Below are positions 8,028 through 31,318 of a stretch of 31,318 nucleotides of DNA, in pieces (position 1 is the first letter of the stretch; the number at the start of each line of letters is the position of its first letter). The notes below the pieces were generated by a model. The model was not told where the DNA came from. It did no database searches and saw only the letters and a list, made by a program, of their open reading frames with translations. Source of the stretch: a virus; IMG/VR virus record IMGVR_UViG_3300028837_001075, positions 1 to 31,318 of that record. One strand, 5' to 3'. The position numbers were made by a program, and so were the translations under genes.

Positions 8028-8038
8028 GAGGTATGGAA

Positions 8039-8464: not shown

Positions 8465-8473
8465 CACAATCAA

Positions 8474-8505
8474 GTGGCGGGGTAGTCAGCGCGATGCCCC
8501 GCCAC
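8474..8505 (+). other. GC-rich hairpin between capsid genes and glycan cassette
   Basis: GTGGCGGGG (8474-8482) pairs perfectly with CCCCGCCAC (8497-8505) across a 14-base loop. There is no T-run after it, so it is not a standard rho-independent terminator. It occupies the 51-base gap at the exact boundary between the capsid block and the sugar-modification genes and could act in RNA stability or partial termination. Confidence 0.6.
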
Positions 8506-8515
8506 ACCCAATGCT

Positions 8516-11390: not shown

Positions 11391-11605
11391 AGGTCAAGAA
11401 ACGGCCAAAGCCAGTAGATATGATCATAGACCGAGGTGTGCTATACCTAGTTCAAGGGGGTCGGCGCATAATAGTGCATCCTGCGATAGCCAAACACAAA
11501 CCATATCGAGATGCCTATCGCAAGTTGTTCGGCAAGCTGGGCTACTTCCCCTTGGATGGCAAGTACCACTTCACCGGCAAGAAGATGCGGAGAGTCAAGT
11601 CGTGA
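11387..11605 (+). CDS. Small basic unknown protein
   Basis: 72 residues; ATG 11387 overlaps the preceding stop as ATGA. Very rich in Lys and Arg (MKVKKRPKPVDMIIDRG; C-terminal GKYHFTGKKMRRVKS), with short beta-like strands such as GVLYLVQGGRRIIVHP. No known family. The overlap with both neighbouring genes argues it is real and co-translated within the glycan cassette; its basic character could suit nucleic-acid or phosphate-group contact, which is only a guess. Confidence 0.55.
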   Translation: MKVKKRPKPVDMIIDRGVLYLVQGGRRIIVHPAIAKHKPYRDAYRKLFGKLGYFPLDGKYHFTGKKMRRVKS

Positions 11606-12405: not shown

Positions 12406-14132
12406 TGAATGACCGGGAGCAAATCATAATCATCGGTGCGTCTGGTCATGCCAGAGTCGCCATCGACATCGTACAACGTGAAGGTAAGTACGACATCGCC
12501 GGCCTCTTGAATCATACAGCGAATGAACAGGTGTTGGGTTATGATGTCTTGGGTCGAGAGGCTGATCTACCACTGGTGGCGAAGGACTATGCCTTGAAGG
12601 GTGCGCTGGTAGCGATTGGTGACAATGCCGTGCGGGCTGAGGTAGTCGCTCGCGTACAGGCACTATGCCCTGATCTTCCCTTCATCATCGCGGTACATCC
12701 CAGCGCAACCGTCGCGTCGAATGTGCTGCTCCGTGAGGGCACAATCGTGATGGCCGGTGCAGTGGTGAATCCGGGTTGTACTATAGACCGTTTCTGCATT
12801 CTGAATACCGGCTCATCTCTTGACCACGATTCAACGATGGCTGAGTTTGCCAGCCTTGCGCCGAGAGTAGCCACAGGCGGGCACTGTTCAATCGGCGCTT
12901 ATTCTGCCATAGGCATTGGAAGCACACTCATCCAAGGCATCGAGATCGGCGTGCATACCATCATAGGGGCTGGCTCAACAGTTCTTGAAGATGTGGGATC
13001 GTTCAAGGTGGCCTACGGAACGCCCGCGCGGGTAGTCCGGCAGAGGAAGATGGGAGATACGTACTTGCTGGGTCGTCCCCTGCGCCAGATAGATGAAGGG
13101 CTTTGCCGCTCCTTCATCTCTGGCAAGACGGTACTAGTGACTGGTGCGGCCGGGTCCATCGGTAGCGAATTGTGCCAGCAATTGGCGCGCTATGGAGCAG
13201 GCAAAGTGCTGGCACTCGACCGAGAAGAAACCGGTCTCTATAACTTGGGCCTAGATTTGCAGGATACTGGATGCCCATTTGCTCTCATCATTGGGGATGT
13301 GTCTGATAGAGAACGAATGAAGACCGTCTGGAGCTTGCATCAACCAGAGATAGTCTATCACTGTGCTGCCTACAAGCACGTTCCCATGATGGAAGACTGC
13401 CCCAGCGAGGCAGTCAAGGTCAACGTTCAGGGATTGCATATCATAACTGCCCTAGCTCGGAAGTGGGGAACGAAGCACTTCGTCTTCATCTCTACTGATA
13501 AGGCAGTCTGCCCGACTGGTATTATGGGTGCCACAAAGCGCCTTGGGGAACTTCTTGTCTTGACACAGCAGAAAGTGACTCGGAACAAGACGCGGTTCTC
13601 GGTCGTGCGATTCGGCAACATACTCGGCAGTCGTGGTAGCGTAGTACCGGCCTTCGCCCGCGCAATCGCAAGGGGTGGTCCAGTCCTAGTAACTGATCCA
13701 CAAGTCAAGCGTTTCTTCATGAGCGTCAGCGAGGCTGTCAGCCTAGTGATCCAATCGGGGCATTACGGGATCGGTGGCGATCTCTTCACCTTTGATATGG
13801 GCGAACTGATGAACATCACGGAACTGGCAAGCAAGATGATCGGGCAGCAAGACATAGAGATCAGTTATATCGGGCTAAGGCCAGGCGAGAAACTAGCAGA
13901 AAGGCTATTCTGTCCGCCATACGAATCTCTCGAATCCACGCCTTGGCCTACGATCATGCGTGTACGCAACATAGATGAGTCGTTTCGCACAGCACCAGAC
14001 ATTGACTACAAGCAGTTGATCAGACTGGCACGCCAAGGCAGGGATGATGAAGTGAGAGACTGGCTCATGGCGGTGGTGCAATTCTCCTGTCTTGAGGATT
14101 GCATATATCGGGATGCGGAGACGCTAGAATGA
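12405..14132 (+). CDS. PglD-like acyltransferase fused to NDP-sugar 4,6-dehydratase (PglF/WbpM type)
   Basis: 575 residues, TAATG overlap with the upstream gene. Residues ~1-225 match the NeuD/PglD sugar acyltransferases: IIIIGASGHARVAIDIV, an N-terminal UDP-sugar-binding fold, then a left-handed beta-helix of hexapeptide repeats with LDHDSTMAEFASLAP, where PglD has its catalytic His. Residues ~240-575 are an extended SDR dehydratase: TGAAGSIGSEL near 245 for NAD(P), FISTDKAVCPTGIMGATKR near 361-379, and LRPGEKLAERLF. The 'MGATK' motif has Met in place of the usual Tyr, as in WbpM/PglF-type enzymes with an SMK triad, favouring UDP-4-keto-6-deoxy-GlcNAc without C5 inversion. The membrane domains of PglF and WbpM are absent, so the enzyme is soluble. 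With the aminotransferase at 19359 it would supply a bacillosamine-type sugar nucleotide. Confidence 0.88.
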   Translation: MNDREQIIIIGASGHARVAIDIVQREGKYDIAGLLNHTANEQVLGYDVLGREADLPLVAKDYALKGALVAIGDNAVRAEVVARVQALCPDLPFIIAVHPSATVASNVLLREGTIVMAGAVVNPGCTIDRFCILNTGSSLDHDSTMAEFASLAPRVATGGHCSIGAYSAIGIGSTLIQGIEIGVHTIIGAGSTVLEDVGSFKVAYGTPARVVRQRKMGDTYLLGRPLRQIDEGLCRSFISGKTVLVTGAAGSIGSELCQQLARYGAGKVLALDREETGLYNLGLDLQDTGCPFALIIGDVSDRERMKTVWSLHQPEIVYHCAAYKHVPMMEDCPSEAVKVNVQGLHIITALARKWGTKHFVFISTDKAVCPTGIMGATKRLGELLVLTQQKVTRNKTRFSVVRFGNILGSRGSVVPAFARAIARGGPVLVTDPQVKRFFMSVSEAVSLVIQSGHYGIGGDLFTFDMGELMNITELASKMIGQQDIEISYIGLRPGEKLAERLFCPPYESLESTPWPTIMRVRNIDESFRTAPDIDYKQLIRLARQGRDDEVRDWLMAVVQFSCLEDCIYRDAETLE

Positions 14133-15100
14133 GGCCCCTCAAAGTTGCCCTAGTACATCGTGGACACTGGTATCGGTATGAACGCATCGACGGCCAGTTT
14201 GCCTATCCGGTACCTGAGTTCACTTGGACACATCACGAGGTGGACAAAGCATTCACAGTGAACTTGGATGAGCTAGGTGTAGATGCGGTCTGGTGGGACG
14301 AGGCCAAGCACAAAGATGATAAGTGCCGCTTTCTGCCGGTGAAAGGCAGGGATCGCCATACGCCTTTGATCTACTACTGTCTGTATCCTACGTTGACCAT
14401 GCACCACTTTCGTTCGCGTACAATACGAGCCAAGCGGTTTGCAGATGTGGTGTGCCTAGAGCACGATGATCTCGAACGCTGGCACGGCTTGAATTGTGGT
14501 ATCTATCGACTGGCCTATTCGGTGAACGAGAATCTTTACAAGCCCGCAGCTAAGACAGTGGATGTGGGGTTCTATTGTTTCCACGGCTATAGCCCGGAAC
14601 GGCCGGCGATGGCCCAATGGCTCGCGGACTTCTGTCAACGCAAGGGCTACAGCTTCTTGACGAACGAAGGACATGAAGGACGAGACTACCCGCAATGGTT
14701 GGCGAAGACGAAAGTGGTGATACACCTTAACCGCACACGTCGCACACGACCGCCACGCATCTTCGACGTGGCTGCGAGCGGGGGCGTGCTCTTATCTCAT
14801 AGAATGCCGGAAGTGAGCGGGGAACGCTGGGAACCAGGAGTCCACTACATACCCTTCGATAACCCGCCCCCGCCGGATGAGATGCAATCAAGGGATCATA
14901 CAGACCATCGCCCATTCAGTGATACAGATTGTGGAGAACTTATCGCTGGCTTGGAGTGGTTGTTGGATGAGGGGAACTGGGAAACAGTAGCAGCGCAGGC
15001 CAGGGCCTACGTCTTGAAGCACCATACCTGGAGGGTACGCGCCAAGGAATTGCATCGGATTTTGTTGGGGGCATTCCCACACTTAGGGCAAAATCAATGA
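14129..15100 (+). CDS. CgeB-like GT-B glycosyltransferase
   Basis: 323 residues from ATG 14129 (ATGA overlap); an in-frame ATG at 14099 lies within the upstream gene and is less likely. The N-terminal half has strands and helices with a VNLDELGVDAVWWDE segment. The C-terminal half has the CgeB/Glycos_transf_1_2 pattern: VVIHLNRTRRTRPPRIFDVA, ASGGVLLSH (about 217-225), EPGVHYIPFDNP, then ELIAGLEWLLDE and ARAYVLKHHTWRVRAKELH, the end-of-domain HTW..R signature. This family are retaining GT-B transferases found in spore-coat, capsule and phage glycosylation loci. No membrane span. Confidence 0.78.
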   Translation: MRPLKVALVHRGHWYRYERIDGQFAYPVPEFTWTHHEVDKAFTVNLDELGVDAVWWDEAKHKDDKCRFLPVKGRDRHTPLIYYCLYPTLTMHHFRSRTIRAKRFADVVCLEHDDLERWHGLNCGIYRLAYSVNENLYKPAAKTVDVGFYCFHGYSPERPAMAQWLADFCQRKGYSFLTNEGHEGRDYPQWLAKTKVVIHLNRTRRTRPPRIFDVAASGGVLLSHRMPEVSGERWEPGVHYIPFDNPPPPDEMQSRDHTDHRPFSDTDCGELIAGLEWLLDEGNWETVAAQARAYVLKHHTWRVRAKELHRILLGAFPHLGQNQ

Positions 15101-15798
15101 TGGTATTCGAGCACCTAGCACAACTGGAACGTGAGACTCTGAAGGCTGACGGGGATTTGCAGCGTTACTACCTGTGGCCACGAACACCCATCGGTAACCT
15201 GCAAGCCGAGATGTGGCAGCGCGTTGGGGTGAGCGATCTTGTCACAGATGATCCGAGTAGCCGAACATACAAAACACTCGCGCTCTTAGAAGGGTTGGTT
15301 TACAACCGCCTGATTGCAGATGACTTCACCTTTCTTGATATCTGCTGCGGGGATGCGGTGATTCTACGTGCGATTGCAGAAGCGTATCCAGAGGCACATG
15401 TGTATGGCGTTGACCTGAACGCGAGAAAGTTGTCGGCTCATACGGAAGCGATGGCGGCTGGCGTGCATCTGTGGATGACGCCAATTCAATCACTGTTTGC
15501 TGTAGACTTGCCTCAGCCAATAGACGTGGCGATGATGCTCAATACGTACTGGGGCTGGGACAAAGCTGATTTGCTGAATGGAGAGCGTGATCTGCCAGTG
15601 CAGGCCGATGATTGGTTCCGCCGCAACGCACGCTTCGTCATTCTGACGGTGACAGAAAAGCAAATCTTCGCCCTGCAAAACAAGGGTTTCTGGATAACGC
15701 GGATTGGCCGAGGCGAAAGCGGGAGCACGATGATCGTCATGTTCCCTTGTGAGTCAACGGAAACGGAGGGGCTATGGAGCGCAGCGCGGAAACGGTGA
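15097..15798 (+). CDS. SAM-dependent methyltransferase
   Basis: 233 residues; ATG 15097 overlaps the previous stop. SAM-binding motif I is FLDICCGDAVIL (residues ~79-90), followed by VYGVDLN at the end of strand beta-2 (acidic residue that binds the ribose). An SLFAVDLPQPIDVAMML segment forms the expected beta-4. The N-terminal extension is helical. It is a class I methyltransferase. Among sugar-transfer genes it likely methylates a sugar hydroxyl or amine, but the substrate is not readable. It overlaps the next gene by 25 bases. Confidence 0.75.
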   Translation: MMVFEHLAQLERETLKADGDLQRYYLWPRTPIGNLQAEMWQRVGVSDLVTDDPSSRTYKTLALLEGLVYNRLIADDFTFLDICCGDAVILRAIAEAYPEAHVYGVDLNARKLSAHTEAMAAGVHLWMTPIQSLFAVDLPQPIDVAMMLNTYWGWDKADLLNGERDLPVQADDWFRRNARFVILTVTEKQIFALQNKGFWITRIGRGESGSTMIVMFPCESTETEGLWSAARKR

Positions 15799-16382
15799 TC
15801 GTGATGCCCACGCTCGATTTGCAGGCCGCTGCTAAGACGATGCAGCAGGCGCGAGAGACAGCGGGTATACCAACGGCTGCGGTGCTGATCAGTGACCAGG
15901 AGCGGCGTGGCGCGGTCTTCGTCAACAATGTGGGCTTCGAGGCAGCGTTGGCATGGGGAGCACGATACATCGTCTATCTGAATGATGATTGCCGCTGTGA
16001 GCAGCAGGGATGGCTTCGACGGCTGATTGAGGTATTGGCCTCTGATCCTTCCTTTGGTGTCGCAGCACCATCAGGGATGTGTCGAGGTGGCCCACAGATG
16101 ATGGGCAAGCCCGGTGAACCGCCAGGCTATGAGATCGTGGCGCAACCATTGGCCTGGTTCTGCGCGGTATGCAAACGCGAAGTCTTTGAAACAGTAGGGT
16201 TATTCGACTCCACCCTGATCCACTACTGCGATGAGTCGGACTTCGAGATGCGAGCGCGCGAGGAGGGATGGAAGTCAGTCTGGGTGCGGGATGTCTATGT
16301 GAATCATGCTGTGGGCATACCAATCGCCGAATGGTGGGAGGCCGACAAGAGACTCTACAACCAGAGGTGGGCCAAGCGATGA
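15774..16382 (+). CDS. GT2-family glycosyltransferase
   Basis: 202 residues; ATG 15774 has GGAGG (15765-15769) 4 bases upstream. It shows YIVYLNDDCRCEQQGWL near residue 69, the 'NDD' metal-binding site of GT2 rhamnosyltransferase-type enzymes, then FGVAAPSGMCRG, a hydrophobic acceptor loop, and the late GLFDSTLIHYCDESDFEMRA with REEGWKSVWVRDVYVNH, the typical 'ExDxxxR...G' acceptor and closing strand. The N-terminus is shorter than a full GT2 domain of about 230-250 residues, but all core motifs are there. It should be cytoplasmic. Confidence 0.82.
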   Translation: MERSAETVIVMPTLDLQAAAKTMQQARETAGIPTAAVLISDQERRGAVFVNNVGFEAALAWGARYIVYLNDDCRCEQQGWLRRLIEVLASDPSFGVAAPSGMCRGGPQMMGKPGEPPGYEIVAQPLAWFCAVCKREVFETVGLFDSTLIHYCDESDFEMRAREEGWKSVWVRDVYVNHAVGIPIAEWWEADKRLYNQRWAKR

Positions 16383-17206
16383 GCAAGAGTCGAAACGAAC
16401 TCTCGCAGATGACGCAGGCGGAACTGAAGGACTGGTACTGGAAGGACTTGGCGTTTCAGGAGGCCAAGTTTGGCGAAAAGCTAGGTGCCCGTCGCTTTCC
16501 AGTCGAGCCTACGCCACTAGCGTACTATACCGAACAGATAGAGACAGGGCAACCATTCACTTTCCAGCGTTATGGAGATGGTGACTGGAATTGCATTCAG
16601 CGTCGTCATGGCTTCGGTGATATTGACGCGCTTCGTCCTGGGCTACGCACAAGCATCGTGAATAGCCTAACACATGCCTATAGAGATGAGCGATATATGA
16701 TGTCCATCTACGTGCAGAACTTTGCGATAGATGGGCTTGACTGGCTAGAAGAACATGTACCCAATATGCGCTGGCATGACGAAGCTGTGTTTGGCTACGC
16801 GAGCCGCGATGGACAACTATACCCGTTCATCAAGGCCATACGCGAGTTGGATGTTCCTATCGTGATCGTTGGACCACCTATGCTGCGCGCGTTCAACGCA
16901 TTCAATGTAGCCCGTTTTGTAGAGGTCTCGCCAGTGCAGACCTCGGCGGCAGATACGTATTCTTGGAATGATTGGCAGCGCGTAGTGCGAGAATGTCTGG
17001 AGGTATCGGGGCCTGCTTTCTTCACCTTCTCGATGGGATTAGCGACGAAGGCCGTAATATGGGAGCTGTTCGGCAAGATCGGCCAACAGAGCTGGCTGTT
17101 GGATGTGGGCAGCTTGTGGGACGTATATGTAGGTGATCGCAGCCGCAAGTACCACTTCGTGATAGATGAGGCTGTTATCAAAGCCAACTTGGGAGATACA
17201 CAATAA
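16379..17206 (+). CDS. GT-D-like (DUF1792) glycosyltransferase candidate
   Basis: 275 residues from ATG 16379 (ATGA overlap). The key feature is FTFQRYGDGDWNCI near residues 62-75, the 'xxRYGDGE' motif that opens GT-D fold enzymes (DUF1792, first described for a streptococcal serine-rich-protein glucosyltransferase). The middle has PIVIVGPPMLRAFNAF, and the C-terminal end has AFFTFSMGLATKAVIW and SWLLDVGSLWDVYVG, matching the family's 'G......l.......IDiG...D' close. An N-terminal helical extension precedes the domain. Known members glucosylate protein-linked glycans, which would suit virion glycosylation; the donor here is unknown. Confidence 0.65.
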   Translation: MSKSRNELSQMTQAELKDWYWKDLAFQEAKFGEKLGARRFPVEPTPLAYYTEQIETGQPFTFQRYGDGDWNCIQRRHGFGDIDALRPGLRTSIVNSLTHAYRDERYMMSIYVQNFAIDGLDWLEEHVPNMRWHDEAVFGYASRDGQLYPFIKAIRELDVPIVIVGPPMLRAFNAFNVARFVEVSPVQTSAADTYSWNDWQRVVRECLEVSGPAFFTFSMGLATKAVIWELFGKIGQQSWLLDVGSLWDVYVGDRSRKYHFVIDEAVIKANLGDTQ

Positions 17207-17230
17207 CATCAAGGCATTCTCGGTACTGAT

Positions 17231-17776
17231 ATGATTGAACGTGATGAAGCCGTAGCACGTGGCCTGGGAATCATCGGGCGTGGCAAGCTACTGGTTGAAG
17301 AATTGGAGTGGCTCTACGACCTGGCCAAGCGTGCCCCAGAGGGATCAGCGGTAGAAGTGGGACCGCTCTGTGGTCGTAGTCTAGTGGCATGGGCATACGC
17401 CAGAGAAGGGCGCGGTACCATCTATGCCGTTGATAACGTGATAAGGGATTGCTTGGCAAAGAACATCGCTGCTCTTGCATTCCCCATCACGCTCATTTGC
17501 AAGGAATCGTGGGAAGCAACTACCGAAATCCCTGATTCGCTCGCGTTCTGTTTCATTGACGCTGATCATGGAATTGACGGGTTTCCGAAAGACATCCTGC
17601 CGTGGGCTGCTAAGATGATACCTGGCGGAATCATTGTCTACCACGATTATGATGTCTGGAAACCCACAGTCGTTGTGAAGCGATATGTCGATGCCTTGCA
17701 GTCATTGGTGGGATGGAAAGACTTGGGAGCTGTACGAAGCGCGAAGGCATTCCAGAGGCCATTATCAGATGGATGA
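17231..17776 (+). CDS. SAM-dependent methyltransferase (Methyltransf_24-like)
   Basis: 181 residues from ATG 17231, after a 24-base gap without a clear ribosome site. Motif I is AVEVGPLCGRSLVAWA (residues ~40-55), the second strand ends in IYAVDN, and FCFIDADHGIDGFPKDI (near 107-123) followed by GGIIVYHDYD gives the acidic metal or substrate pocket of Methyltransf_24/TylF-like O-methyltransferases. This fold commonly methylates sugar hydroxyls in antibiotic and polysaccharide pathways. It resembles the methyltransferase at 18685 in motif layout. Confidence 0.8.
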   Translation: MIERDEAVARGLGIIGRGKLLVEELEWLYDLAKRAPEGSAVEVGPLCGRSLVAWAYAREGRGTIYAVDNVIRDCLAKNIAALAFPITLICKESWEATTEIPDSLAFCFIDADHGIDGFPKDILPWAAKMIPGGIIVYHDYDVWKPTVVVKRYVDALQSLVGWKDLGAVRSAKAFQRPLSDG

Positions 17777-17788
17777 TAGCGAGGAAGC

Positions 17789-18688
17789 ATGAAAATAGCA
17801 GTCTGCACAGCAGCCTCCGGTAAGAAGCACCAGAGCTGCCTGCCATTGTTCGCTCTCTCCTTGCGCGTGAGCTACCCGGAGTATGCACTGCGCTTGTTCT
17901 CGGTTGGTGAACTAGACGAACCTGTGAAGGCTGCGCTTGAGATGGTCGGTGGTGCGAACGTTGTGCTAGATGAGCGCGAATTCGTGGGCTATTGCGACCA
18001 GCCACGCATCGGGGCAGTTGCGCGTTTTCTGGTTTTCACTCCAGCGCGGTGGGAGCGGTTCTTCAGTGAGTTCGACGCCGTCTATATCACGGACTGCGAT
18101 ATGTTCATCGCACGCGAAGAGCCACCACTGCACGTTCAGCATACAACGCATTGTGAGGCCATAGGCTTGCCCTATTCTGACCTGATACGAAGTTGCCACT
18201 GCCGCTGCATGACCGGCCTGCTGTTCTGTCTGCCTGAGTTCCAGAAACAAGTAGCTGAGACGTGTGAACGGTTTGACGCGATCATACGCACCGAAGGTTT
18301 ATACGGTCTTGGCACTCCGGGTCACATTCAAGATGAATGGATGTTGCGCGAGATGGTGGAGCAGGCAGGTATCGGTTTGCCGCCACAGTGGGAACAAACC
18401 AAAGACCCGTCAAAAGGCGTGGCGATGGGTGAGCCAGTGAACTGCAAGCAGGCTTGGTTTCGCCCTTGGCATGGCATCAATCTAGGCTGGACCAAACAGG
18501 TGGGCGGGCTGGCCTATGCCAAGCAGACCATACAGGAGCAGCCATCAATCGCAGCGGCGATGAGGCACCTGATGTTGCTATGGAAGCATCCCGACTTTCA
18601 GGTTGCCTATGATGTATTGACGCTATCTAACAAAACAGCATTAGACATCTGGCAGGAAGCATACGATCAAGTGCGGAGCGAGCAATGA
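17789..18688 (+). CDS. GT-A-like glycosyltransferase
   Basis: 299 residues; ATG 17789 is preceded closely by GAGGAAG. It opens with MKIAVCTAASGKKHQSCLPLF, a beta strand and helix typical of GT-A enzymes, and has VYITDCDMFIAREEP near residue 98, a DxD motif (Asp-Cys-Asp) at the usual place. GYCDQPRIGAVARFLVF precedes it, and HIQDEWMLREMV and a C-terminal WHGINLGWTKQ follow, resembling the GT8-like 'HxxG' metal-binding end. Cytoplasmic, with no signal or membrane segment. Donor and acceptor unknown. Confidence 0.7.
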   Translation: MKIAVCTAASGKKHQSCLPLFALSLRVSYPEYALRLFSVGELDEPVKAALEMVGGANVVLDEREFVGYCDQPRIGAVARFLVFTPARWERFFSEFDAVYITDCDMFIAREEPPLHVQHTTHCEAIGLPYSDLIRSCHCRCMTGLLFCLPEFQKQVAETCERFDAIIRTEGLYGLGTPGHIQDEWMLREMVEQAGIGLPPQWEQTKDPSKGVAMGEPVNCKQAWFRPWHGINLGWTKQVGGLAYAKQTIQEQPSIAAAMRHLMLLWKHPDFQVAYDVLTLSNKTALDIWQEAYDQVRSEQ

Positions 18689-19362
18689 AAGTACCATTTC
18701 TTGAATCACCGACCCACCCCGACTATCGGCACAATTGCTCAGGTGTAGCTCTGTGGAATCTATGCTTGATGCTGAAACCAACCTATGTAGTAGAGCTCGG
18801 CACCTGGCAAGGTACGTCAGCGATGCTAGTCGCTAAATACCTGGAAAAGCATCGGGATGATCAGGGTGCAATTGTCACGGCAGACGTGGTGACACACCTT
18901 TTCGTAGAAGAGCACCCATTGGTTGAAAAGGTGCAGGTCTACCCGCACACAGAACATGGGTTGGAACAGGCACCCTGGGCAACCGAGCGATTCCGGCGAT
19001 CAGATTGGAAACGCGGACTAGATGATTCGGTCACACTCAACACGGAATTGATACTGAAGGCATTGCGAGCACGCGGTGGTCAGCTATTCGATTTGGCCTA
19101 CGTGGACGGCGATCACAGCGAGGAAGGCTTGCTACGTGATCTGGAGATTGTCAAGCAGGTCACGGCACCACCACACTATGCCCTGCTGGACGACGTATAC
19201 CGGAACTACCCAGCGGCGAAGTTATATCAAGAACAGTTGCGCGACTTATACAACCATTACGACTTCGATGATGGAGGCTGGGAAGCCTGGGAGACCTGGC
19301 TTGAACCGCGCCCAGCGGTATGTACGATGCCCCGCATGGCGCTGGTTTGGAGTGACGAATGA
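18685..19362 (+). CDS. SAM-dependent methyltransferase (Methyltransf_24/CmcI-like)
   Basis: 225 residues with ATGA overlap at both ends. YVVELGTWQGTSAMLVAKYL (residues ~34-53) is SAM motif I; VTADVV is the second-strand acidic; FDLAYVDGDHSEEGLLRDLE (about 135-154) and HYALLDDVY give the two acidic sites for metal and substrate, as in cephalosporin-hydroxylase/CmcI-like and Methyltransf_24 enzymes. Likely O-methylation of a sugar or aglycone. It sits immediately before the aminotransferase gene. Confidence 0.78.
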   Translation: MKVPFLESPTHPDYRHNCSGVALWNLCLMLKPTYVVELGTWQGTSAMLVAKYLEKHRDDQGAIVTADVVTHLFVEEHPLVEKVQVYPHTEHGLEQAPWATERFRRSDWKRGLDDSVTLNTELILKALRARGGQLFDLAYVDGDHSEEGLLRDLEIVKQVTAPPHYALLDDVYRNYPAAKLYQEQLRDLYNHYDFDDGGWEAWETWLEPRPAVCTMPRMALVWSDE

Positions 19363-20480
19363 TACCAATCTTCTCTAACACTCTAGGTGACGAAGAACTG
19401 CAAGCGGTGGAGCGCGTATTCGCCAGCCGATGGCTTGGTCGAGGCCAAGAATGTGCCGGTTTCGAGAGTGAGTTCGCGGCATACCAGAAGACAGATGCGA
19501 GTCAAGTCTTGCTATGCAACTGTTGTACTTCGGCCATACACATTGCCCTGCGTGCGCTTGGGGTTGGGCCGGGGGCTGAGGTGATCGTACCGACAGCGCA
19601 CTTTGTCTCTGCGGGCACCCTACCGATGGAGCTTGGTGCTCAAGTGGTATTGGCCGACGTAGACGCACGCACGCTCAATGTCAAGCCCGCAGAGGTTGAG
19701 CGGTTATTGACGAAGCGCACGCGGGCGATCCTCTTGTTGCATTATGGCGGACATCCGTGTGATGTTGACGCGATTCGTGAGATCGTAGATGGTCGCGCGG
19801 CCATTATCGAAGACGCTGCCAATGCTGTAGCGTCCACCTATCACGGCCTCCCTTGCGGCACGTTAGCTGACGCAGGGGTGTGGTCATTCGATGCAATGAA
19901 GATATTGGTGATGGGCGATGGTGGAGCACTGTGGATGCGGGACGATGTTGCTCTGAAAGCGGCTCGTAGTATGCGCTACCTGGGCCTGAAGCGAGGCACG
20001 GCTAGTGGAACTGATGCAGCACACGCCGGTTCACCGCGCTGGTGGGAGTTCACCGTCGAGACGCCATCGGGTCGGTTCATCTCTAATGATATACTGGCTG
20101 CGATTGGGCGCGTGCAACTGAAGAAGCTCGACCAGTTCATCTCCCGGCGGCACGAGATATGGGACACATATCAGCGTGAATTGGCAAGTTGTCCACTTGC
20201 GCTACCGCCTGAACCGCTGGCTGATTGCACCACATCGTACTATATGTATTGGGTCCAGACCTCCCGACGCGATGATCTAGCGGCATTCCTACGTGAGCAG
20301 GGCATATTCTACACGACCTTCCGCTACTGGCCTCTGCATCGTGCTATACCAGGGTTCGATGGAGAGTTCCCTGGCGCGGATGAAGCCGCAGATACCACGC
20401 TATGCCTGCCGCTGCATCAGAACCTAACGGATGCGGACGTGGAAGAGATCATTGGCTGCGTCAAGGACTTCTTCAGATGA
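19359..20480 (+). CDS. DegT/DnrJ/EryC1/StrS aminotransferase (PglE-like)
   Basis: 373 residues, full length for the family, ATGA start. It is a PLP-dependent sugar aminotransferase: LCNCCTSAIHIALRALGVG near 51-70, the EVIVPTAHFVSA segment, LLHYGGHPCDVDAI, EDAANAVAS with the PLP-ring Asp152, and VWSFDAMKILVMGDGGALWM, where Lys181 is the expected Schiff-base lysine. The late SNDILAAIGRVQLKKLD and the substrate region FRYWPLHRAIPG are also typical. It should convert a 4-keto-6-deoxy NDP-sugar to the 4-amino sugar using glutamate. Paired with the dehydratase-acyltransferase fusion at 12405, this completes the three steps of UDP-N,N'-diacetylbacillosamine synthesis. The exact keto position (C3 or C4) cannot be proved by sequence. 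Confidence 0.93.
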   Translation: MIPIFSNTLGDEELQAVERVFASRWLGRGQECAGFESEFAAYQKTDASQVLLCNCCTSAIHIALRALGVGPGAEVIVPTAHFVSAGTLPMELGAQVVLADVDARTLNVKPAEVERLLTKRTRAILLLHYGGHPCDVDAIREIVDGRAAIIEDAANAVASTYHGLPCGTLADAGVWSFDAMKILVMGDGGALWMRDDVALKAARSMRYLGLKRGTASGTDAAHAGSPRWWEFTVETPSGRFISNDILAAIGRVQLKKLDQFISRRHEIWDTYQRELASCPLALPPEPLADCTTSYYMYWVQTSRRDDLAAFLREQGIFYTTFRYWPLHRAIPGFDGEFPGADEAADTTLCLPLHQNLTDADVEEIIGCVKDFFR

Positions 20481-21475
20481 GATTGGATATTGGCAGCGGG
20501 CCGAAGAGACGCGCTGGCTACTTCACCGTTGATCTATACTGCCCAGAGGCAGACTTTCAAGTTCCGGCACACGAGTTGCCGCTGGAAGACGGGACAGTGG
20601 ACGAGGTTTTCACTTCGCACATGATTGAACATCTATTGCCGCAGGAGTTCGCACTAGCATTACGGGAATGGTATCGAGTTCTCAAGCTAGGTGGGAAGTT
20701 GATAATCTGCTGCCCGAACTTCGAGCGGTGGATGCTAGACTGGTGTTCAGGTAATGATGAGTATCGCTGGGGCACGGCATTGAACGGCATCTTGGGCAAT
20801 CAAGAGAGAGGTCCAGGTCATTGGGTTCATAATGCCTTCAACCCGCAGCGACTAGGCACGCTGGTAGCACAAGCGGGGTTTACGGTACTGAAAACAGAAG
20901 CAGTCCCGACGCGAGCGAGTGACCATCCACCGATTGATTCTATTGGTTGGGAAGTGTGGCCAGTACCAGAGCCGAATGATGATCCACGTAGGGTGGCGCG
21001 ACGGTACAAGACGCTTTGCCACCGATGGTTTCCTGACACTGATGTGTGGCTTTGGTTGGACGGAGCCGTGCAACTTCAAGTGCCACCGGAAACGGTTGTT
21101 GAGGCTTTCCTAGACGGTGCCGATATTGGGGCCTTTCGCCATCCGAGCCGGGATTGCGCCTATACCGAAGCTATCAGATGTATCCAGAAGGGCAAGGATA
21201 CCCAAGCTATTCTCAAGGGACAGATGGCAGCAATGCGTCACACCCAGTTTCCATCTCATTGGGGATTGGTAGAGACTGGCTTGATAGCTAGGCGCAACAC
21301 AGCGGCGATCAAGGCGCTCAATGAGCGGTGGTGGCTGGAGATTGAGAGGTATAGCGTGCGAGATCAAATTAGCCTGCCGTTCGTCTGTTGGCAACGCGGG
21401 ATTGAATTGCAGGCGATGGCCGGCAGTTTGGTAGACCATCCGTGGATTGACTACCGCTCGCACGCGGGGAGGTAA
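20477..21475 (+). CDS. Methyltransferase fused to TOD1/MUCI70 (DUF616) glycosyltransferase-like domain
   Basis: 332 residues from ATG 20477 (ATGA overlap); an in-frame ATG at 20402 is inside the aminotransferase gene. Residues ~1-150 are a compact Methyltransf_11 domain: MRLDIGSGPKRRAGYFTVDL, LPLEDGTVDEVFTSHMIEHL and REWYRVLKLGGKLIICCPN. Residues ~185-332 read as the DUF616/TOD1-MUCI70 domain: PDTDVWLWLDGAVQLQVPPE, FRHPSRDCAYTEAIRCI, the K-D..Q segment, FPSHWGLVETGLIARRN, and WWLEIERYSVRDQISLPFV. That family was named from plant proteins, including one involved in seed mucilage, and is also found in bacterial sugar loci. This is the last gene of the glycan cassette. Confidence 0.82.
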   Translation: MRLDIGSGPKRRAGYFTVDLYCPEADFQVPAHELPLEDGTVDEVFTSHMIEHLLPQEFALALREWYRVLKLGGKLIICCPNFERWMLDWCSGNDEYRWGTALNGILGNQERGPGHWVHNAFNPQRLGTLVAQAGFTVLKTEAVPTRASDHPPIDSIGWEVWPVPEPNDDPRRVARRYKTLCHRWFPDTDVWLWLDGAVQLQVPPETVVEAFLDGADIGAFRHPSRDCAYTEAIRCIQKGKDTQAILKGQMAAMRHTQFPSHWGLVETGLIARRNTAAIKALNERWWLEIERYSVRDQISLPFVCWQRGIELQAMAGSLVDHPWIDYRSHAGR

Positions 21476-24542: not shown

Positions 24543-26342
24543 GTGGCTGATTATAACATCCAGATCACCATCAGTGCCATAGACAAGGCAACGAAGGACA
24601 TCAAGGACGCCGCCAAGGCAACTGGTGATCTGAATAAACAGACGGATAAGCTAGAGAAGACTGCTGGCAAGACCAAGACCGGTATCGGAGGTCTGAGTAC
24701 CGCCATCAAAGCTGCGGGCGCGGCGATCAGTATCATGGCGGTACAGAAAGTCGCCGGGGCTACCTTTGAGCTTATGAAGCTCGGTGCCCAATCCATACGC
24801 ACCAAGACTGCTTTCGAGAACATCTCCGGTGGAGCAGGGCAAGCTACAGAACGCCTAGAGGCTATGCAGCGGGCCACAAGAGGCGCAATGTCCGAGCAGC
24901 AGATGATGGGTACTGCTAATCGGCTCATGCAGATGGGGTTGGCGGACAGCGCCGAAGAACTGGAGCGAGTCGTTACAATGGCGACCCGCTTGGGTTCTGC
25001 GATGGGTGTTGGGGCAACCGAGGCTGTAGAATCGTTCGCTCTGACTCTGGCAAATACCTCGATTCCCAGGCTCGATCTTTTCGGCATCAGCGCGGGCAAG
25101 GTGCGAAAGCGCATTCAGGAATTACAAGCCGCAATGCCGGGAATGGCGCGCGAGGCTGCTTTCTTCGCTGCCACGATGGAAGTTGGCGGAGAAGCAATGG
25201 CCCGGCTTGGCGATGTGGTTGAAGATGAAGCGCTCAGTATAGAGCGGTTGGAGGCAAGCTGGACAGACCTCAAAACGACTTTCGGCGAGGCTTTCGCTAC
25301 ACTCACCCCGCTACTGGATGCAATATCAGGTGGCTTGGGCATCATTCGTGATCTATCGGAGAAATCGGCCGACACTCGAAAGGAACAAGCTGGCTGGGTA
25401 ACTACGCTACGCACGCTCTTGCCACCTCTGAATGCCGTGCTGACGGTGATCGAATGGCTTGCGCCAGCGAACGATGACCTGATTGCATCTATGGGGCAGA
25501 TGCCTGATGCGGCTGATGAGTATCGGCGGTTCACCGGCGCGGCGGCTGAGGCTACAGAAGATTTGGTGGTGGCCGAGCGCGATCTGAAAGCAGAACTGAG
25601 TGACCTGGCCTCATGGATGCGTGGCCCAGTTAGCAGCGCGATGGACGATTACCGCGAGCAACAGGCGGATATTCAGCAAGAGATTGACAAGACGAATGAG
25701 AGCCTAGCAGACGCGATTGTACAGTATGGGGCGACTTCGGACGAAGCACAAGGCTACCGTGATGATTTGACTGAGCTTGAGCAGAAGATGGTTGACTTGG
25801 CCGAGACTTCGCGCCAGAAGATGCACCAACTAATCTACGATATGGCTATGGCACGAATGGCTGCCGACGGTGAGATCACAGCCGCAGAAGCCGACTTTGC
25901 CCTGGCGCTGGCCGAGCATCTGGGTCTGATTGATGAGAACACACGACGAATGGCGGAGAATATCAACACAGCACTAGATGGCTTGGCGGCCGGGGAAGGA
26001 ATATCAAACACGCTCCGGGCATTGGACTCCATCGCAATAGCAGGAGAGATTGCGGCGGGTAGAGTGAGCGCAGCGACTATGCACTGGGAAGACCTGCGGC
26101 GCATCTACGGTCAGTATGGCGGGAGCTTGCCTGGTCGTCAAAGTGGTGGCCCGGTCAGCGCTGGACAGCCGTACTGGGTCGGTGAGGCAGGACGGGAACT
26201 GTTCGTGCCTCAGCAGTCTGGCAATATCGTTTCTCACGAACAGAGTACCAACTACCACTTCAGTCAGACCGTGCACACGCGCGCGAGTACACACAGCGTG
26301 ATGCAGGACTTCGAGCAGACTAGGGCGCTGATGGGGGCCTGA
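24543..26342 (+). CDS. Tail tape measure protein
   Basis: 599 residues from GTG 24543 after a 3-base gap. Long, helical, Ala/Gly-rich chain: YNIQITISAIDKATKDIKDA at the N-terminus, a Lys/Thr coiled-coil with DKLEKTAGKTKTGIGG, a hydrophobic TAIKAAGAAISIMAVQKVAG, then TAFENISGGAGQATERLEAM and GTANRLMQMGLADSAEELE, typical of TMP N-terminal domains. The later DYREQQADIQQEIDKTNESL and LTELEQKMVDLAETSRQKM are coiled coils, and the C-terminus has a GGPVSAGQPYWVGEAGRELF motif common at TMP ends. By the usual ~0.15 nm per residue rule it would set a tail near 90 nm. No peptidase domain is seen. Confidence 0.93.
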   Translation: MADYNIQITISAIDKATKDIKDAAKATGDLNKQTDKLEKTAGKTKTGIGGLSTAIKAAGAAISIMAVQKVAGATFELMKLGAQSIRTKTAFENISGGAGQATERLEAMQRATRGAMSEQQMMGTANRLMQMGLADSAEELERVVTMATRLGSAMGVGATEAVESFALTLANTSIPRLDLFGISAGKVRKRIQELQAAMPGMAREAAFFAATMEVGGEAMARLGDVVEDEALSIERLEASWTDLKTTFGEAFATLTPLLDAISGGLGIIRDLSEKSADTRKEQAGWVTTLRTLLPPLNAVLTVIEWLAPANDDLIASMGQMPDAADEYRRFTGAAAEATEDLVVAERDLKAELSDLASWMRGPVSSAMDDYREQQADIQQEIDKTNESLADAIVQYGATSDEAQGYRDDLTELEQKMVDLAETSRQKMHQLIYDMAMARMAADGEITAAEADFALALAEHLGLIDENTRRMAENINTALDGLAAGEGISNTLRALDSIAIAGEIAAGRVSAATMHWEDLRRIYGQYGGSLPGRQSGGPVSAGQPYWVGEAGRELFVPQQSGNIVSHEQSTNYHFSQTVHTRASTHSVMQDFEQTRALMGA

Positions 26343-26343
26343 G

Positions 26344-28794
26344 ATGAGCGATTGGCGAATAGTAGTTCCTGATCTGGCAACAAACAAGGTGCTGAATCCT
26401 TCGGCAGAGATCGCTGGAAACTTCGCGGCCGCTGGTGGCGCTGCCGTTGTGCAATCAACCACGTATCAGAAGTATGGGTTGCGATCATATAGCGTGATCA
26501 CGGCCGCCAACAACGATGGCATGACGCTGACCCTAGAAACCCTGCTGAATCTGCCCCACTATGTTACGGTGCTGGTTCGCGGGACTCTACCGGCTTCGTG
26601 GGATTGGTCTCTGGACAACGTCAACTACTATCCACCCAACTTGATTATGGAGCTAGATGCCGACTGGTCATTGTACGGCTATGCCTTCCCTGCTGTCGAG
26701 GCCATAGGTTCTACCACTCTCCACATTCACCAGAACGGGGCGGGAGCCGGGAACTTCTACCTTGACGCCGTGCAGGTAGAAGAGGATCATACCTACTGGA
26801 CGACCTACGTTGACGGGGATCAGCCGGGCTGTGAGTGGTTGGGGCCACGCCACGCGAGCGCCAGCACCAGGAGTGCTCAGAGTAGGGCGGGTGGTAGACT
26901 GTGTGATCTACAGACTGACTATCACTTGGAAATTGGCGCAGCCATCGGCATCGGTCTTGCCCCGCAGAGTTTGACACTGGACACTTATGCGATTCTACCT
27001 GGCGGCGAACTGAACTCGATCAAAGTGCAGCCCCGCTCATTCAGCCTGACTGGTGTGATCCGTGGCACATCCCTAGAGAACCTACATCTTAGAGCACAAG
27101 AGCTACACTCTGTCTTGTTGTCTCACTACGTACCGCCTGATGCTGATGGGCCGCAACCTGTTCGCATCTGGTACACTGGGGCCGAAGTAGTCAAACAGAT
27201 CGCGGCCCACTATGAAGGCGGGCTAGAGGGAGCAATCACCACTCAGAACCCTTGCGGGTGGCAACGGGTGAGCGTTCGCTTTCTCGCTCCCGATCCGAAC
27301 TGGTACGAGATTGGCGAGAGCGCGGCCATACTGGATCACAACGACAGCGCCACCTTCCGCATAGTGGCCGGCCGTCTAAGAGATACCGGCCAGTGGGATA
27401 ATCTAGGGCCGCCAGGAGCGCCAGGGACGGCAGTCTATAACCAAGTACGGGCTATCGCCGAGGATGAGACCTATCTCTACTTGGGAGGTAACTTCCTCAA
27501 CTTCAACAACAACGCAAACGATGATTACATTGTACGCTACCACAAGCAGACGGGGGCGTACTCTAGCCTTGGCGTTGGCCTAACAGATAGTCAAGTCTAC
27601 GCCTTGGCGGTTGGCCCGGATGGTACGCTCTACGCTGGCGGATCATTCTTGAACATAGGCGGTGTAGCCTGTAGCCGTATCGCAGCTTGGAATGGCGTTG
27701 CTTGGGCAACGTTGGGGGTTGGTATGAATGCTCCCGTTGAAGGTCTAGCTATTGGCCCTGATGGCACACTCTATGCCGGCGGCCAGTTTACTACTGCTGG
27801 CGGTATAGCTGCCAACTACGTAGCCCAATGGAATGGTGCTGTTTGGGCTGCTATGGGTGCTGGGATGGGCGGCGGCATTCCGTTCGTTCACGAAATGGCC
27901 GTGGGTTTGGATGGCATTGTATATGCTGGCGGGAGTTTCGTTACAGCCGATGGCGGTGCCGCCCTAGCAATTGCCCAATGGGATGGTGTTGCGTGGTCTG
28001 ACGTCGGCGGTGGAATGGCTGATGCCCTGGTGCCGCCGGCCGAAGTGGATTCCTTTGCGGTTGCGTCCAATGGAACCCTATATGCAGGCGGCTACTTTGA
28101 ATCGGCCGGGGGTGTTCCAGCGACGTATATAGCCGCTTGGAATGGTGCCGCATGGTCTGCGCTTGGTTCTGGCACTAATCAGACTGTTTTTTCCTTAGCT
28201 ATCGGGCCAGACGATATGCTCTATGCGGGCGGTACGTTCACCTTGGCTGGGGGGTTGACTTTGGCTGACCGTATAGCCAAGTGGAATGGATCAAGCTGGG
28301 CACACCTAGATGCTGACTTGCCAGGCGCTTTGTGGGTATGGGCAATCCTCGCAAGCGAAGCTGATCCTATAATTCAGGCAAACTATGATCTATGGTTAGG
28401 ATTCGGCACAAGCGGCGTGGGCTACTTCGCTGGCACGGTCACGGTAGACCCCGGCAGCACAGCCCCGGCCTATCCGCGCTTCGTCGTATCGCGGGCCGGT
28501 GGGACTTCGGCTATACTGGAAGAGCTGAGAAACGAGACGACCGGACGGGAGCTGCTTTTCGACTATTCGCTGTTGGACACCGAGCGCTTGACGGTGGACC
28601 TGACGCCAACCGTCAAGGGTGTGGAATCATCATACTGGAAGGATCGACTAGATGCGGTGTTCGCCGCTTCAGACTTCGGCTTGTGGGCACTTCAGCCAGG
28701 CGCTAATCAGGTGACGTGTTTTGTAGCTGAAGCTGGAGCGCCGACGGTAGAGGCTGCGCTGGTTTGGCGCACACCGTACCAGAGTGCGGATTGA
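26344..28794 (+). CDS. Dit-like distal tail protein with CBM-like domain and inserted beta-propeller
   Basis: 816 residues. (a) ~10-160: jelly-roll carbohydrate-binding-like module, with NLVLNPSAEI-type opening (here NKVLNPSAEIAGNF), QKYGLRSYSV and FYLDAVQVEEDHTYWTTYVD, the usual closing. (b) ~185-345: Dit N-terminal part with RSFSLTGVIRGTSLENLHLR and WQRVSVRFLAPDPNWYE. (c) ~350-690: six or so repeats of ~47-58 residues, each with YAGGxF near the start, WNGxxW in the middle and a PDGTL turn at the end, forming a beta-propeller whose blade may be closed by the N-terminal QWDNLG segment. (d) ~700-816: NETTGRELLFDY, then SSYWKDRLDAVFA and FGLWALQPGANQVT, resembling the galectin-like Dit C-terminal part. 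The propeller therefore interrupts a Dit. Likely adhesion to host surface at the tail tip. Confidence 0.85.
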   Translation: MSDWRIVVPDLATNKVLNPSAEIAGNFAAAGGAAVVQSTTYQKYGLRSYSVITAANNDGMTLTLETLLNLPHYVTVLVRGTLPASWDWSLDNVNYYPPNLIMELDADWSLYGYAFPAVEAIGSTTLHIHQNGAGAGNFYLDAVQVEEDHTYWTTYVDGDQPGCEWLGPRHASASTRSAQSRAGGRLCDLQTDYHLEIGAAIGIGLAPQSLTLDTYAILPGGELNSIKVQPRSFSLTGVIRGTSLENLHLRAQELHSVLLSHYVPPDADGPQPVRIWYTGAEVVKQIAAHYEGGLEGAITTQNPCGWQRVSVRFLAPDPNWYEIGESAAILDHNDSATFRIVAGRLRDTGQWDNLGPPGAPGTAVYNQVRAIAEDETYLYLGGNFLNFNNNANDDYIVRYHKQTGAYSSLGVGLTDSQVYALAVGPDGTLYAGGSFLNIGGVACSRIAAWNGVAWATLGVGMNAPVEGLAIGPDGTLYAGGQFTTAGGIAANYVAQWNGAVWAAMGAGMGGGIPFVHEMAVGLDGIVYAGGSFVTADGGAALAIAQWDGVAWSDVGGGMADALVPPAEVDSFAVASNGTLYAGGYFESAGGVPATYIAAWNGAAWSALGSGTNQTVFSLAIGPDDMLYAGGTFTLAGGLTLADRIAKWNGSSWAHLDADLPGALWVWAILASEADPIIQANYDLWLGFGTSGVGYFAGTVTVDPGSTAPAYPRFVVSRAGGTSAILEELRNETTGRELLFDYSLLDTERLTVDLTPTVKGVESSYWKDRLDAVFAASDFGLWALQPGANQVTCFVAEAGAPTVEAALVWRTPYQSAD
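27475..28365 (+). repeat. Beta-propeller repeats in the distal tail gene
   Basis: Six in-frame degenerate repeats of about 140-175 bases. YAGGxF (YLGGNF in the first) occurs at roughly 27480, 27630, 27773, 27920, 28080 and 28220, each followed by a WNGxxW-like element except the first, which is the most diverged. The last unit (ending before the degenerate LGFGTSG stretch) is longer and irregular. Confidence 0.85.
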
Positions 28795-29915
28795 TGGCAG
28801 GCTCATACGAGTTCTGGTTGAGCACTGATGCAGGGGTGCGGATCGCCCTATTGGACACCGTACTAGGAATGCGGGCCAGCCGCCTTGTGAATGGCCTGGG
28901 ACATCTCACGCTATCCATACCGCCCGACCTGCCAGACTCGTTTCTGAAGCCAGATCGACTCATTCAAGTATGGCGCGGGCCGACCGCGAGCAAGCTATCC
29001 CTCTGGAATGTCTACATGCTGCGCAAATGGCGCTGGGAAAGGCCGGAAGATGCGGAACAGCTCACGCTCTATGGGCCGGATATGAACGACTTGTTGCGCC
29101 GACGGATAGTAGCAGCCTTCTCCGGCACGACAGATTCCGAGAAGACAGATGAAGCTGACGACATGATGAAGAGCTTAGTAACGGAATCCCTGCTCGACAC
29201 GGCCTTGCCCATACCAGCGGCCGGGACACGGGCCTGGGCCAATCTCACTGTTATGCCTGATGTCAGTCTGGGGCCGATCATCACGAAGGGTGTCTCTTTC
29301 CGTGACCTGCTAGATCAGTACGGTAGTGGAACTCTACCAGAGATCAGCCAAGCGGCGAAAGCTGCTGGAACAGACGTGTTCTTTGCTATCAGGCCGAACG
29401 TCATCACATCGAATAGCATCAACTTCATCTTCGAGACGTACACCGGACAACCGGGAATGGACGTCTCCGACCGCGTGACCTTCGCTCTGGAGCACGGCAA
29501 CCTACTTGCGCCGTATCTGGAGTACGACTACGAGGGGGAAGTCAACTATGTGTACTCAGGAGGGCAAGGTGAGGACACAGGCAGGAATGTGCAGCAGGTC
29601 TACGACGCCCCGCGTTACGGTGCCTCAATCTGGAGCCGCTGTGAGGGGTTTGCCGATGCACGGGATCAGGACACGGACAACGGAGTGATCGCCACTGGGG
29701 ATGCTCAACTCCGAGAAGGCAAGCCTTTGGTTCGTGCTGGCGGTTTGGCTATGGATACCAGGGGCACTCGGTTCGGGCGCGATTGGGACTTCGGCTACAA
29801 AGTCACAGCGCGATACCATACCGTGGAGTTTGATGCTATCGTGAGGGCCGTTAGTCTTGGACTAGACATTGATGGCCGTGAAACCGCGAGGGCAAGGTTG
29901 GAATACAATGCCTGA
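28794..29915 (+). CDS. Gp37-like tail hub/baseplate protein
   Basis: 373 residues; ATG 28794 shares its A with the preceding TGA (28792-28794). It matches the siphovirus Gp37-like family named from Rhodococcus phage ReqiPepy6: FWLSTDAGVRIALLDTVLGM, LTLSIPPDLPDSFLKPDRLI, then YMLRKWRWERPEDAEQLTLYG, and a C-terminus with NYVYSGGQGEDTGRNVQQV and GYKVTARYHTVEFDAIVR followed by SLGLDIDGRETARARLE. These proteins act as the tail hub (Tal-like), opening at host contact. Gene order Dit then hub is standard. Confidence 0.85.
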   Translation: MAGSYEFWLSTDAGVRIALLDTVLGMRASRLVNGLGHLTLSIPPDLPDSFLKPDRLIQVWRGPTASKLSLWNVYMLRKWRWERPEDAEQLTLYGPDMNDLLRRRIVAAFSGTTDSEKTDEADDMMKSLVTESLLDTALPIPAAGTRAWANLTVMPDVSLGPIITKGVSFRDLLDQYGSGTLPEISQAAKAAGTDVFFAIRPNVITSNSINFIFETYTGQPGMDVSDRVTFALEHGNLLAPYLEYDYEGEVNYVYSGGQGEDTGRNVQQVYDAPRYGASIWSRCEGFADARDQDTDNGVIATGDAQLREGKPLVRAGGLAMDTRGTRFGRDWDFGYKVTARYHTVEFDAIVRAVSLGLDIDGRETARARLEYNA

Positions 29916-30519
29916 GAGCGTCAGTGATAGGACTATTCAGCGGCTCGCGGCTTTGGAGCGACGGGTGGCGATGCTTGCCAAGCCGGAAGTAGGCGGATGG
30001 CGGTTCATCGCTGGGGCGGTTCTGGCCGCCCCCGCAGCCAGCGTGATTTTCGCCGCCATACCGGGGCACTATCAGACTCTGATACTCCATCTTCTTCTTC
30101 GTTCGACGCGAGCCGCACCGAATGAAGTTGATGATGTGCGGCTGCAATTCAATGCCGATGTAGGCAACCGTTATCATTGGGGATATATGCAACGATTCGC
30201 TGCCGCATTCGGAAGCGGAGAATTGCTGAATCAAGCATCTTTAAGTCCTGGCATAGCCGAGGCTGGTGGTAGCACGGCTGGCTTTTTCTGTCCCACCATT
30301 GTCGAGGTTGTGGGCTACAATCGAGTTGCTACCAGCCACTATGCATTGAGCAGGTCCACCAACATCGGGAACGCATCTGCGGTGGCTGACTTCACTCTCA
30401 CGGATCGTGGTGGTGCATGGGTTCCTCTCGCTGCGACGGCGATAACCAGCGTGACAGTGTTTTGCGGGAATGGGAACATCGACACTGGTTCAGTCTTGAC
30501 CCTATCGGGGATGCTATAA
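29908..30519 (+). CDS. Tail tip/fibre-like structural protein
   Basis: 203 residues from ATG 29908, overlapping the hub gene by 8 bases; an upstream in-frame ATG at 29869 lies deeper in the hub gene. A short N-terminal helix (DRTIQRLAALERRVAML) could trimerise, as in fibre proteins. The rest is beta-rich: PGHYQTLILHLLLRSTRA, DVRLQFNADVGNRYHWGYMQ and AITSVTVFCGNGNIDTGSV. The 'i...Y.hL.L....R......d...l.fN.D.g..Y' pattern recurs in tail proteins of many phages. Likely receptor-facing part of the tail tip; the exact role is unknown. Stop and next start overlap as TAATG. Confidence 0.7.
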   Translation: MPESVSDRTIQRLAALERRVAMLAKPEVGGWRFIAGAVLAAPAASVIFAAIPGHYQTLILHLLLRSTRAAPNEVDDVRLQFNADVGNRYHWGYMQRFAAAFGSGELLNQASLSPGIAEAGGSTAGFFCPTIVEVVGYNRVATSHYALSRSTNIGNASAVADFTLTDRGGAWVPLAATAITSVTVFCGNGNIDTGSVLTLSGML

Positions 30520-31318
30520 TGACCTGCCGAGGCCGTCCACGGACGCAGTATCAGAAGACCACACTGGTCTTCCCGTCTGACATGACAGTTGACGAGGTGC
30601 AGAAGATCATTTCGTACCAGTGGTCGCTTGCCCCTACTCAGTACGGGCCGAGTGCAGATGACGCTGGGATGGGCGACCTTGACGAACGCATAGCTATCGT
30701 ACTGAACTGGAACGGCCTGACCCAAGCCTGGTACGATCAGTACTACCCCGGTACGAAGTGCTGGCCTCTAGCCTACGAGAACGACCTACAACTTGAGGGC
30801 CGGCTGCTGGCCTACGATCTGAAGCGCAAAGGACTGGTACTCGGCAACCCGTCGTCTCATTGCGAGCCGTGCGTGACGCACGAGTTCGGGGAGATCATGA
30901 GCTATGGTCTGCACAAAGGCATCGACCTCCGAGGCTCGTGGGCTGAGTGGGGGGACGAGGCACTGGCGGCCTATGATGGCAAGATTGTGTGGGCTGGCCA
31001 CCTAGACAACGGACTCGGTACTCAGGTTTGGGAAGAGATCACCGTACCAGATGGGCGCAAGTTAGTACTACGCTACGGGCACCTAGTTCCTGGCAGCCCT
31101 ACTGTACGGGACGGAGACGCGGTAGAGCAGGGGCAGCCTCTAGGTCAACTGGACAACTCCGGTAACTCGTTCGGCGACCACCTCCACTTCGAGATTCGTG
31201 TTCGTGACGAACAAGCGGCCGATCCAGAACCGCTCATTGACTTCGCCAAGCCCGAACCGATGGCCTACGGCATACACGGATTGGCCACACCAGATAGACC
31301 ACCAAGGGATAGGTGGGA
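30519..31318 (+). CDS. M23 (LytM-type) endopeptidase, 3' end outside window
   Basis: At least 266 residues, still open at the right edge. The central domain has HKGIDLRG near residue 133 (metal-binding His and Asp), YGHLVPGS and HLHFEIRV near residue 222 (catalytic and metal-binding His), with GDAVEQGQPLGQLDNSGNS between, the complete M23 zinc peptidase signature. The N-terminal ~120 residues (LNWNGLTQAWYDQYYPGTKC) are an unrecognised helical region. After M23 the chain continues with EPMAYGIHGLATPDRPPRDRW, a likely further domain, so the full enzyme is larger. It would cleave peptidoglycan cross-bridges, either as a tail-associated lysin for entry or as the endolysin. Position after the tail genes permits both. 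Confidence 0.9.
   Translation, partial: MTCRGRPRTQYQKTTLVFPSDMTVDEVQKIISYQWSLAPTQYGPSADDAGMGDLDERIAIVLNWNGLTQAWYDQYYPGTKCWPLAYENDLQLEGRLLAYDLKRKGLVLGNPSSHCEPCVTHEFGEIMSYGLHKGIDLRGSWAEWGDEALAAYDGKIVWAGHLDNGLGTQVWEEITVPDGRKLVLRYGHLVPGSPTVRDGDAVEQGQPLGQLDNSGNSFGDHLHFEIRVRDEQAADPEPLIDFAKPEPMAYGIHGLATPDRPPRDRW

Follow-up and report, generated by a model that had tools for sequence, protein, structure and literature searches.

Distal tail (Dit) rings are among the best studied parts of phage tails, and their known decorations comprise CBMs in galectin loops, short arms and a Rossmann-like insert in mycobacteriophage Corndog. The Dits of SPP1 (gp19.1, PDB 2x8k), TP901-1 and p2 share with the protein analyzed here a two-domain fold and a gene position between the tape measure and Tal genes, but they carry neither a propeller nor a CBM-type domain at the N-terminus. 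Extra carbohydrate-binding-type domains are also found in the evolved Dits of lactococcal, streptococcal and Lactobacillus phages. What defines these Dits are CBMs inserted into galectin-domain loops (PMC7291167), an arrangement that the present protein lacks; it has a propeller at the domain junction and a CBM-type domain at the N-terminus instead. Corndog gp58 carries an extra domain, inserted between its domain I and its C-terminal domain, that protrudes from the Dit; this insert is Rossmann-like and not a propeller, and the section describing it mentions no N-terminal jelly roll (PMC13252515). Beta-propellers are found at the tail tip or baseplate in the receptor-binding protein gp45 of phage phi11 and in PhiKZ gp131, but these (five-, seven-bladed) are separate receptor-binding or peripheral proteins outside the Dit ring (PMC4901313). 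An insertion at the Dit junction is already known from Corndog; no propeller at this position was found in the literature and phage records searched.

In the window, i.e. the whole stretch of 31,318 nucleotides analyzed here, the Dit gene is one open frame from an ATG at 26344 to a stop codon at 28794 encoding 816 residues. Inspection of the junction sequence revealed that one base separates the stop codon of the tape measure gene from this ATG. The gene lies between the tape measure and the Gp37-like Tal genes (Table 1), the latter most likely starting with the ATG at 28794. In almost every relative, Tal follows the propeller Dit, as a rule immediately. In two relatives (L006 6417-9146; L011 6324-9140), Tal genes possess long N-terminal extensions with SPSASVSPS or poly-serine linkers. 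The short gene behind Tal encodes a candidate small fibre or receptor-binding protein; post-Tal genes of similar length and start were observed in L002, L015, L021, L188, L207 and L209. Additionally, a frame at 30519-31318 that runs off the end of the window looks, on visual inspection, like an M23-type peptidase (HKGIDLRG...HLHFEIR) and is possibly a lysis gene. Between the head and tail modules, about 12 kb (9717-21475) hold glycosyltransferase, nucleotide-sugar epimerase, methyltransferase and aminotransferase-like genes.

Table 1. Tail-module genes of the window and domains of the 816-residue Dit protein.
Feature	Position	Strand	Basis
Tape measure protein gene	24543..26342	+	PHROG_1538 tail length tape measure protein, E 1.4e-9
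Jelly roll related to CBM4_9/CBM22, residues 1-160	26344..26823	+	Foldseek, profile, PF02018 in relatives
Dit N-terminal (ring) domain, residues 161-345	26824..27378	+	PF05709 in relatives, PHROG_33, Foldseek SPP1 Dit
Beta-propeller, most likely seven-bladed, residues 346-700	27379..28443	+	PF17164, PF12768, model, structural matches
Galectin-like Dit C-terminal domain, residues 704-816	28453..28791	+	PF22768 SPP1_Dit
Tal / baseplate hub protein, Siphovirus Gp37-like	28794..29915	+	PF14594, E 1.1e-13; PHROG_538, E 1.8e-21
Short gene, coiled-coil-like start	29872..30519	+	No match in family search; similar genes in relatives

An AlphaFold2 monomer model built on a 71-sequence alignment reached a pLDDT of 93.7 and a pTM of 0.89. 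A model built on nine sequences had a pLDDT of 73 and resolved the Dit parts poorly, with low confidence; Foldseek returned mostly propellers for it and no Dit among the best 50 matches listed. With the 71-sequence model, Foldseek matched SPP1 Dit (2x8k, E 1.2e-5), the TP901-1 baseplate (4v96, E 2.2e-5) and a baseplate chain of phage NF5 (E 6.4e-5), and propellers were also matched. The best match among predicted viral structures was a 596-residue phage protein (E 2e-33, 20% identity). Insert-free viral models named 'Siphovirus-type tail component' could be aligned over about 640 columns (A0A6J7XHE1, TMt 0.76); this alignment therefore spans the propeller. The original prediction of a beta-propeller flanked by two Dit halves agrees with the model, the Foldseek matches and the insert-free Dit alignment, and a Dit fold is predicted on both sides of the repeats. 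The predicted halves themselves were retained, but their borders shifted from ~185-345 and ~700-816 to ~160, 345 and 704. The protein was confirmed as the Dit of a siphovirus tail tip.

The sequence matches of the two halves were comparatively analyzed in the window protein and its relatives. Sipho_tail PF05709 did not match the window protein alone; the N domain matched it in nine of 24 relatives (best 6.8e-6). For the C domain, PF22768 SPP1_Dit was matched by the isolated window residues 704-816 (26 bits, cut-off 25) and in 23 of the 24 relatives. PHROG_33 Dit also matched the window protein, and PHROG_106 minor tail protein spanned residues 202-786 as one match in which the propeller is a gap. 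NCBIfam gave no match to the window Dit, and neither its N nor its C part had a significant match in PDB sequence-profile searches, the best being NF5 Gp15 (E 0.017).

Distant Dits without a propeller were found via the C domain and Tal, namely gp16 of Streptomyces phage ToastyFinz, a Streptomyces plasmid Dit (WP_180333997) and the gene preceding a Tal-like gene in Bifidobacterium phage BitterVaud1. An empty-site profile was constructed from the two Dit parts only, omitting the propeller. It matched the 299-residue WP_180333997 in a single alignment of 277 residues (65 bits), with just about 20 extra residues at the Dit domain junction. Since this insert-free protein covers both halves in one alignment, the propeller is, judged from the aligned sequences, an insertion at or beside the junction of the ring and galectin-like domains.

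The propeller region contains six Y[AL]GGxF motifs, which recur every 47-53 residues (at 379, 430, 477, 527, 580 and 627); the protein also has five W[ND]GxxW motifs. Chance repeats were ruled out by 20,000 shuffles of the protein, which produced at most one motif of either type. The repeated blades matched the DUF5122 / delta-60 type propeller PF17164 in three stretches with 44.6 bits (cut-off 27); the Rax2 propeller PF12768 was matched with 30.6 bits (cut-off 28.8). Model confidence was about 90-97 across most blades. VIA-align, in which propellers filled all matches listed and which is uninformative on the Dit and jelly roll parts, aligned seven-bladed propeller proteins with a Z of about 26 and an rmsd of 2.4-3.1 in most rows. 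About six repeats had been predicted, and six do bear the motif, but the propeller most likely has seven blades, as do its best structural matches. The seventh blade would consist of a degenerate last repeat around residue 684 closed by an N-terminal strand near residue 351.

Conserved propeller columns are mostly structural G, F, W, Y and T, and few are polar. The propeller might be an enzyme, a glycosidase or lyase cutting envelope polysaccharide; many propellers are carbohydrate-active, and GH74 and virginiamycin B lyase were among the structural matches. These matches reflect the common fold only, however, and the propeller alignment columns held no strongly conserved charged or obvious catalytic residue set, so that an enzymatic function appears highly improbable.

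Loop length varied most in the b-c and d-a loops of the blades (sd 1.7 and 1.6, as compared to 0.3 for a-b and 0.7 for c-d), i.e. on one face of the propeller. Interior blades were about as similar to non-equivalent as to equivalent blades of other proteins, which by sequence comparison would fit either recombination between blades or just a strong shared consensus. The pairwise distances gave no indication that whole propellers were swapped frequently. In L002/L059 and in L012, the blades of a single protein closely resemble one another (L059, about 74% identity); these sequences suggest recent duplication or homogenization at constant propeller length.

A CBM-like jelly roll had been proposed ahead of the Dit, and this assignment held. 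Foldseek matched it with CBM22 structures (4xup/1h6x/4xuo, E ~4e-5 to 1e-4), its profile matched xylanase CBMs (E 3e-5), and PF02018 CBM_4_9 was matched in nine of 23 relatives; the window jelly roll alone gave no Pfam match. A conserved segment, TTY.DGDQ.GC.W.G..H.S.S.R, bridges the jelly roll and the Dit N domain. One propeller Dit without the jelly roll (L140 4551-6926) starts with a lipoprotein-like leader (MKRCLRVALVAVLALALAGGC).

An IMG/VR scan with the window Dit protein alone yielded no relatives; relatives were recovered with the Tal protein. A set of 24 diverse Tals, once aligned, proved too divergent for use as a scan query. The survey was carried out with two independent baits, the Dit alignment, giving 80 loci and six MAG loci, and the downstream Tal, giving 79 loci. 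All 145 complete frames having both Dit parts contained the propeller. They represent 108 distinct sequences, one of them a frame-broken copy (L050), and in the remaining 107 intact relatives the propeller is invariably found at the same site, with 319-409 residues separating the Dit parts. Because both baits stem from the phage's own lineage, this result shows fixation there and not among Dits generally. A misjoined frame or assembly chimera was ruled out because the same domain order recurs in more than 100 distinct sequences, drawn from many contigs.

Three queries against 50,697 catalogued phage records retrieved no propeller Dit, and a literature search on propellers and Dit or adhesion devices found none either, its incomplete coverage making this weak evidence of absence. 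The insertion, which had been called unusual, is so in comparison with catalogued phages but not within its lineage.

Pairwise distances correlated between Dit parts and propeller (NC-P, 0.46), propeller and Tal (P-Tal, 0.51) and Dit parts and Tal (NC-Tal, 0.62), each exceeding the highest value among 200 permutations, as joint inheritance would predict. The insertion probably arose once in the lineage and was kept since. The jelly roll was present in 92 distinct relatives and absent from 15 of the 107 intact ones, with nine changes on the tree; its distances tracked those of Dit, propeller and Tal less closely. In L012, two propeller-Dit genes (6641-9400 and 9407-11944; 48% identical) lie in tandem, and it is the first copy that lies closest to the window gene on the tree (59% identity).

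Since known Dits are hexamers, six-fold display may by analogy be assumed for the window phage: six copies would be expected as a ring between tail tube and Tal hub, with six propellers and as many CBM-type domains on its outer side. Outward display of the propeller would be reasonable given that the Corndog junction insert protrudes from the Dit (PMC13252515). The propellers and CBM-type domains would then make a first low-affinity contact with glycans of the host envelope or with secreted proteins before the Tal hub opens. We favor this reading with a probability of about 0.55; the receptor-binding surface that had been predicted at the tail tip is plausible. A point against a receptor role is that variability in the propeller does not exceed that in the hub domains (mean column entropy 2.18 versus 2.27 and 2.05 for the two Dit parts); many receptor-binding domains are more variable.

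This conservation, together with a near-constant length like that of the hub domains, fits a docking role as well. The propeller may be a structural platform that widens the ring and anchors small post-Tal fibres, which in turn recognize the host; the small fibre-like gene after Tal could encode the true receptor-binding protein. Such a platform would explain well that the propeller stays in every intact relative while the jelly roll is gained and lost, and short coiled-coil-like genes follow Tal in many relatives. Dit loops are known to bind receptor-binding proteins (PMC7048315), as do the Dit extensions of lactococcal p2 and staphylococcal 80alpha (PMC7291167; PMC7048315). However, short loops or arms are usual for this purpose and not a propeller of 350 residues, and the length variation on one propeller face also argues against it. 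We regard docking as less likely but as an alternative to be taken seriously, and contact of the propellers and CBM-type domains with the host as the preferred reading.

Signal peptides were called with a simple custom rule and not with a trained predictor; by this rule, 26 of 108 relatives have a Sec-type signal peptide in frame at the N-terminus, and in about 20 of these a YLPxI-like motif follows the cleavage region. Leader-bearing Dits are encoded in L018 (6875-9469), L002 (5441-7975), L008 (5325-7967), L013 and L015 (both from 6866) and L011 (565-3111), and in about 20 other loci. The window Dit is leaderless; within its starred clade on the tree, a leader occurs in 24 of 40 members. Comparison of nine loci revealed leader dN/dS values of mostly 0.05-0.3, indicating purifying selection. 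Furthermore, in the loci checked, leaders occur mainly on the Dit gene, few other genes having one. Several leader-bearing Dits keep an internal ATG at the leaderless start, some with a Shine-Dalgarno-like sequence, and of the tandem copies in L012 the first is leaderless and the second has a signal-peptide-like leader.

These observations would suit two forms in part of the family, a Sec-exported one that coats the host surface, e.g. to prevent superinfection, and a leaderless one from which the tail is built. But the window copy is leaderless, export would withdraw the tail protein from assembly unless both forms are produced, and the rule used for the calls is a simple one; secretion appears quite improbable. 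For the window copy, both the enzymatic and the secreted-decoy readings are less likely than host contact or docking. Signal peptides on a tail protein would be surprising if functional.

Compact clusters were observed in L189 (535-8511), L202 and L203 (both on the reverse strand), L163, L165 and L141. They contain TerL (not seen in L203), portal, capsid, connector, propeller Dit and Tal genes. No tail tube or tape measure gene was found in the interval from connector to Dit; L189 and L202, with abutting genes, show this most clearly. Some of these clusters adjoin cellular genes in Chloroflexota contigs. Judged from gene content, they are possibly tube-less or domesticated particles, or decayed prophages. 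A broader dual use, with six propellers on the virion hub, a Sec-exported form of many members blocking or decoying receptors on the host surface and, in another branch, tube-less particles encoded in Chloroflexota chromosomes with Dit and Tal on the head connector, seems unlikely.

A propeller Dit of some kind was found in 10 of 158 Anaerolineae genomes, several of which (L205, L206, L207 and L209) have a tape-measure-sized gene upstream. On a 66-kb contig of an Anaerolineae MAG, propeller Dit and Tal lie between cellular genes at both ends (AI-2E transporter and inositol-1-phosphate synthase; pyridine nucleotide-disulphide oxidoreductase), and in Chloroflexota genome G218 they adjoin DsbA-like and protein kinase genes. 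Furthermore, Chloroflexota genomes encode many propeller proteins of the same blade type, some apparently secreted; one (L177) has a hydrophobic N-terminal leader and matches the propeller profile with an E of 9e-174. These YAGGxF/WDGxxW proteins share their blade type with the window Dit, but they are cellular and lack Dit domains. By sequence resemblance, they are a likely source of the Dit insert. The apparent link to a Chloroflexota host comes from the relatives and not from the window phage itself.

Fixation of a propeller in the Dit of a large lineage that has no catalogued member means that the domain junction of the ring accepts a large folded domain. Chloroflexota is a phylum with few known phages, and the propeller Dit may serve as a marker, and as a receptor-binding candidate, for phages of this phylum.
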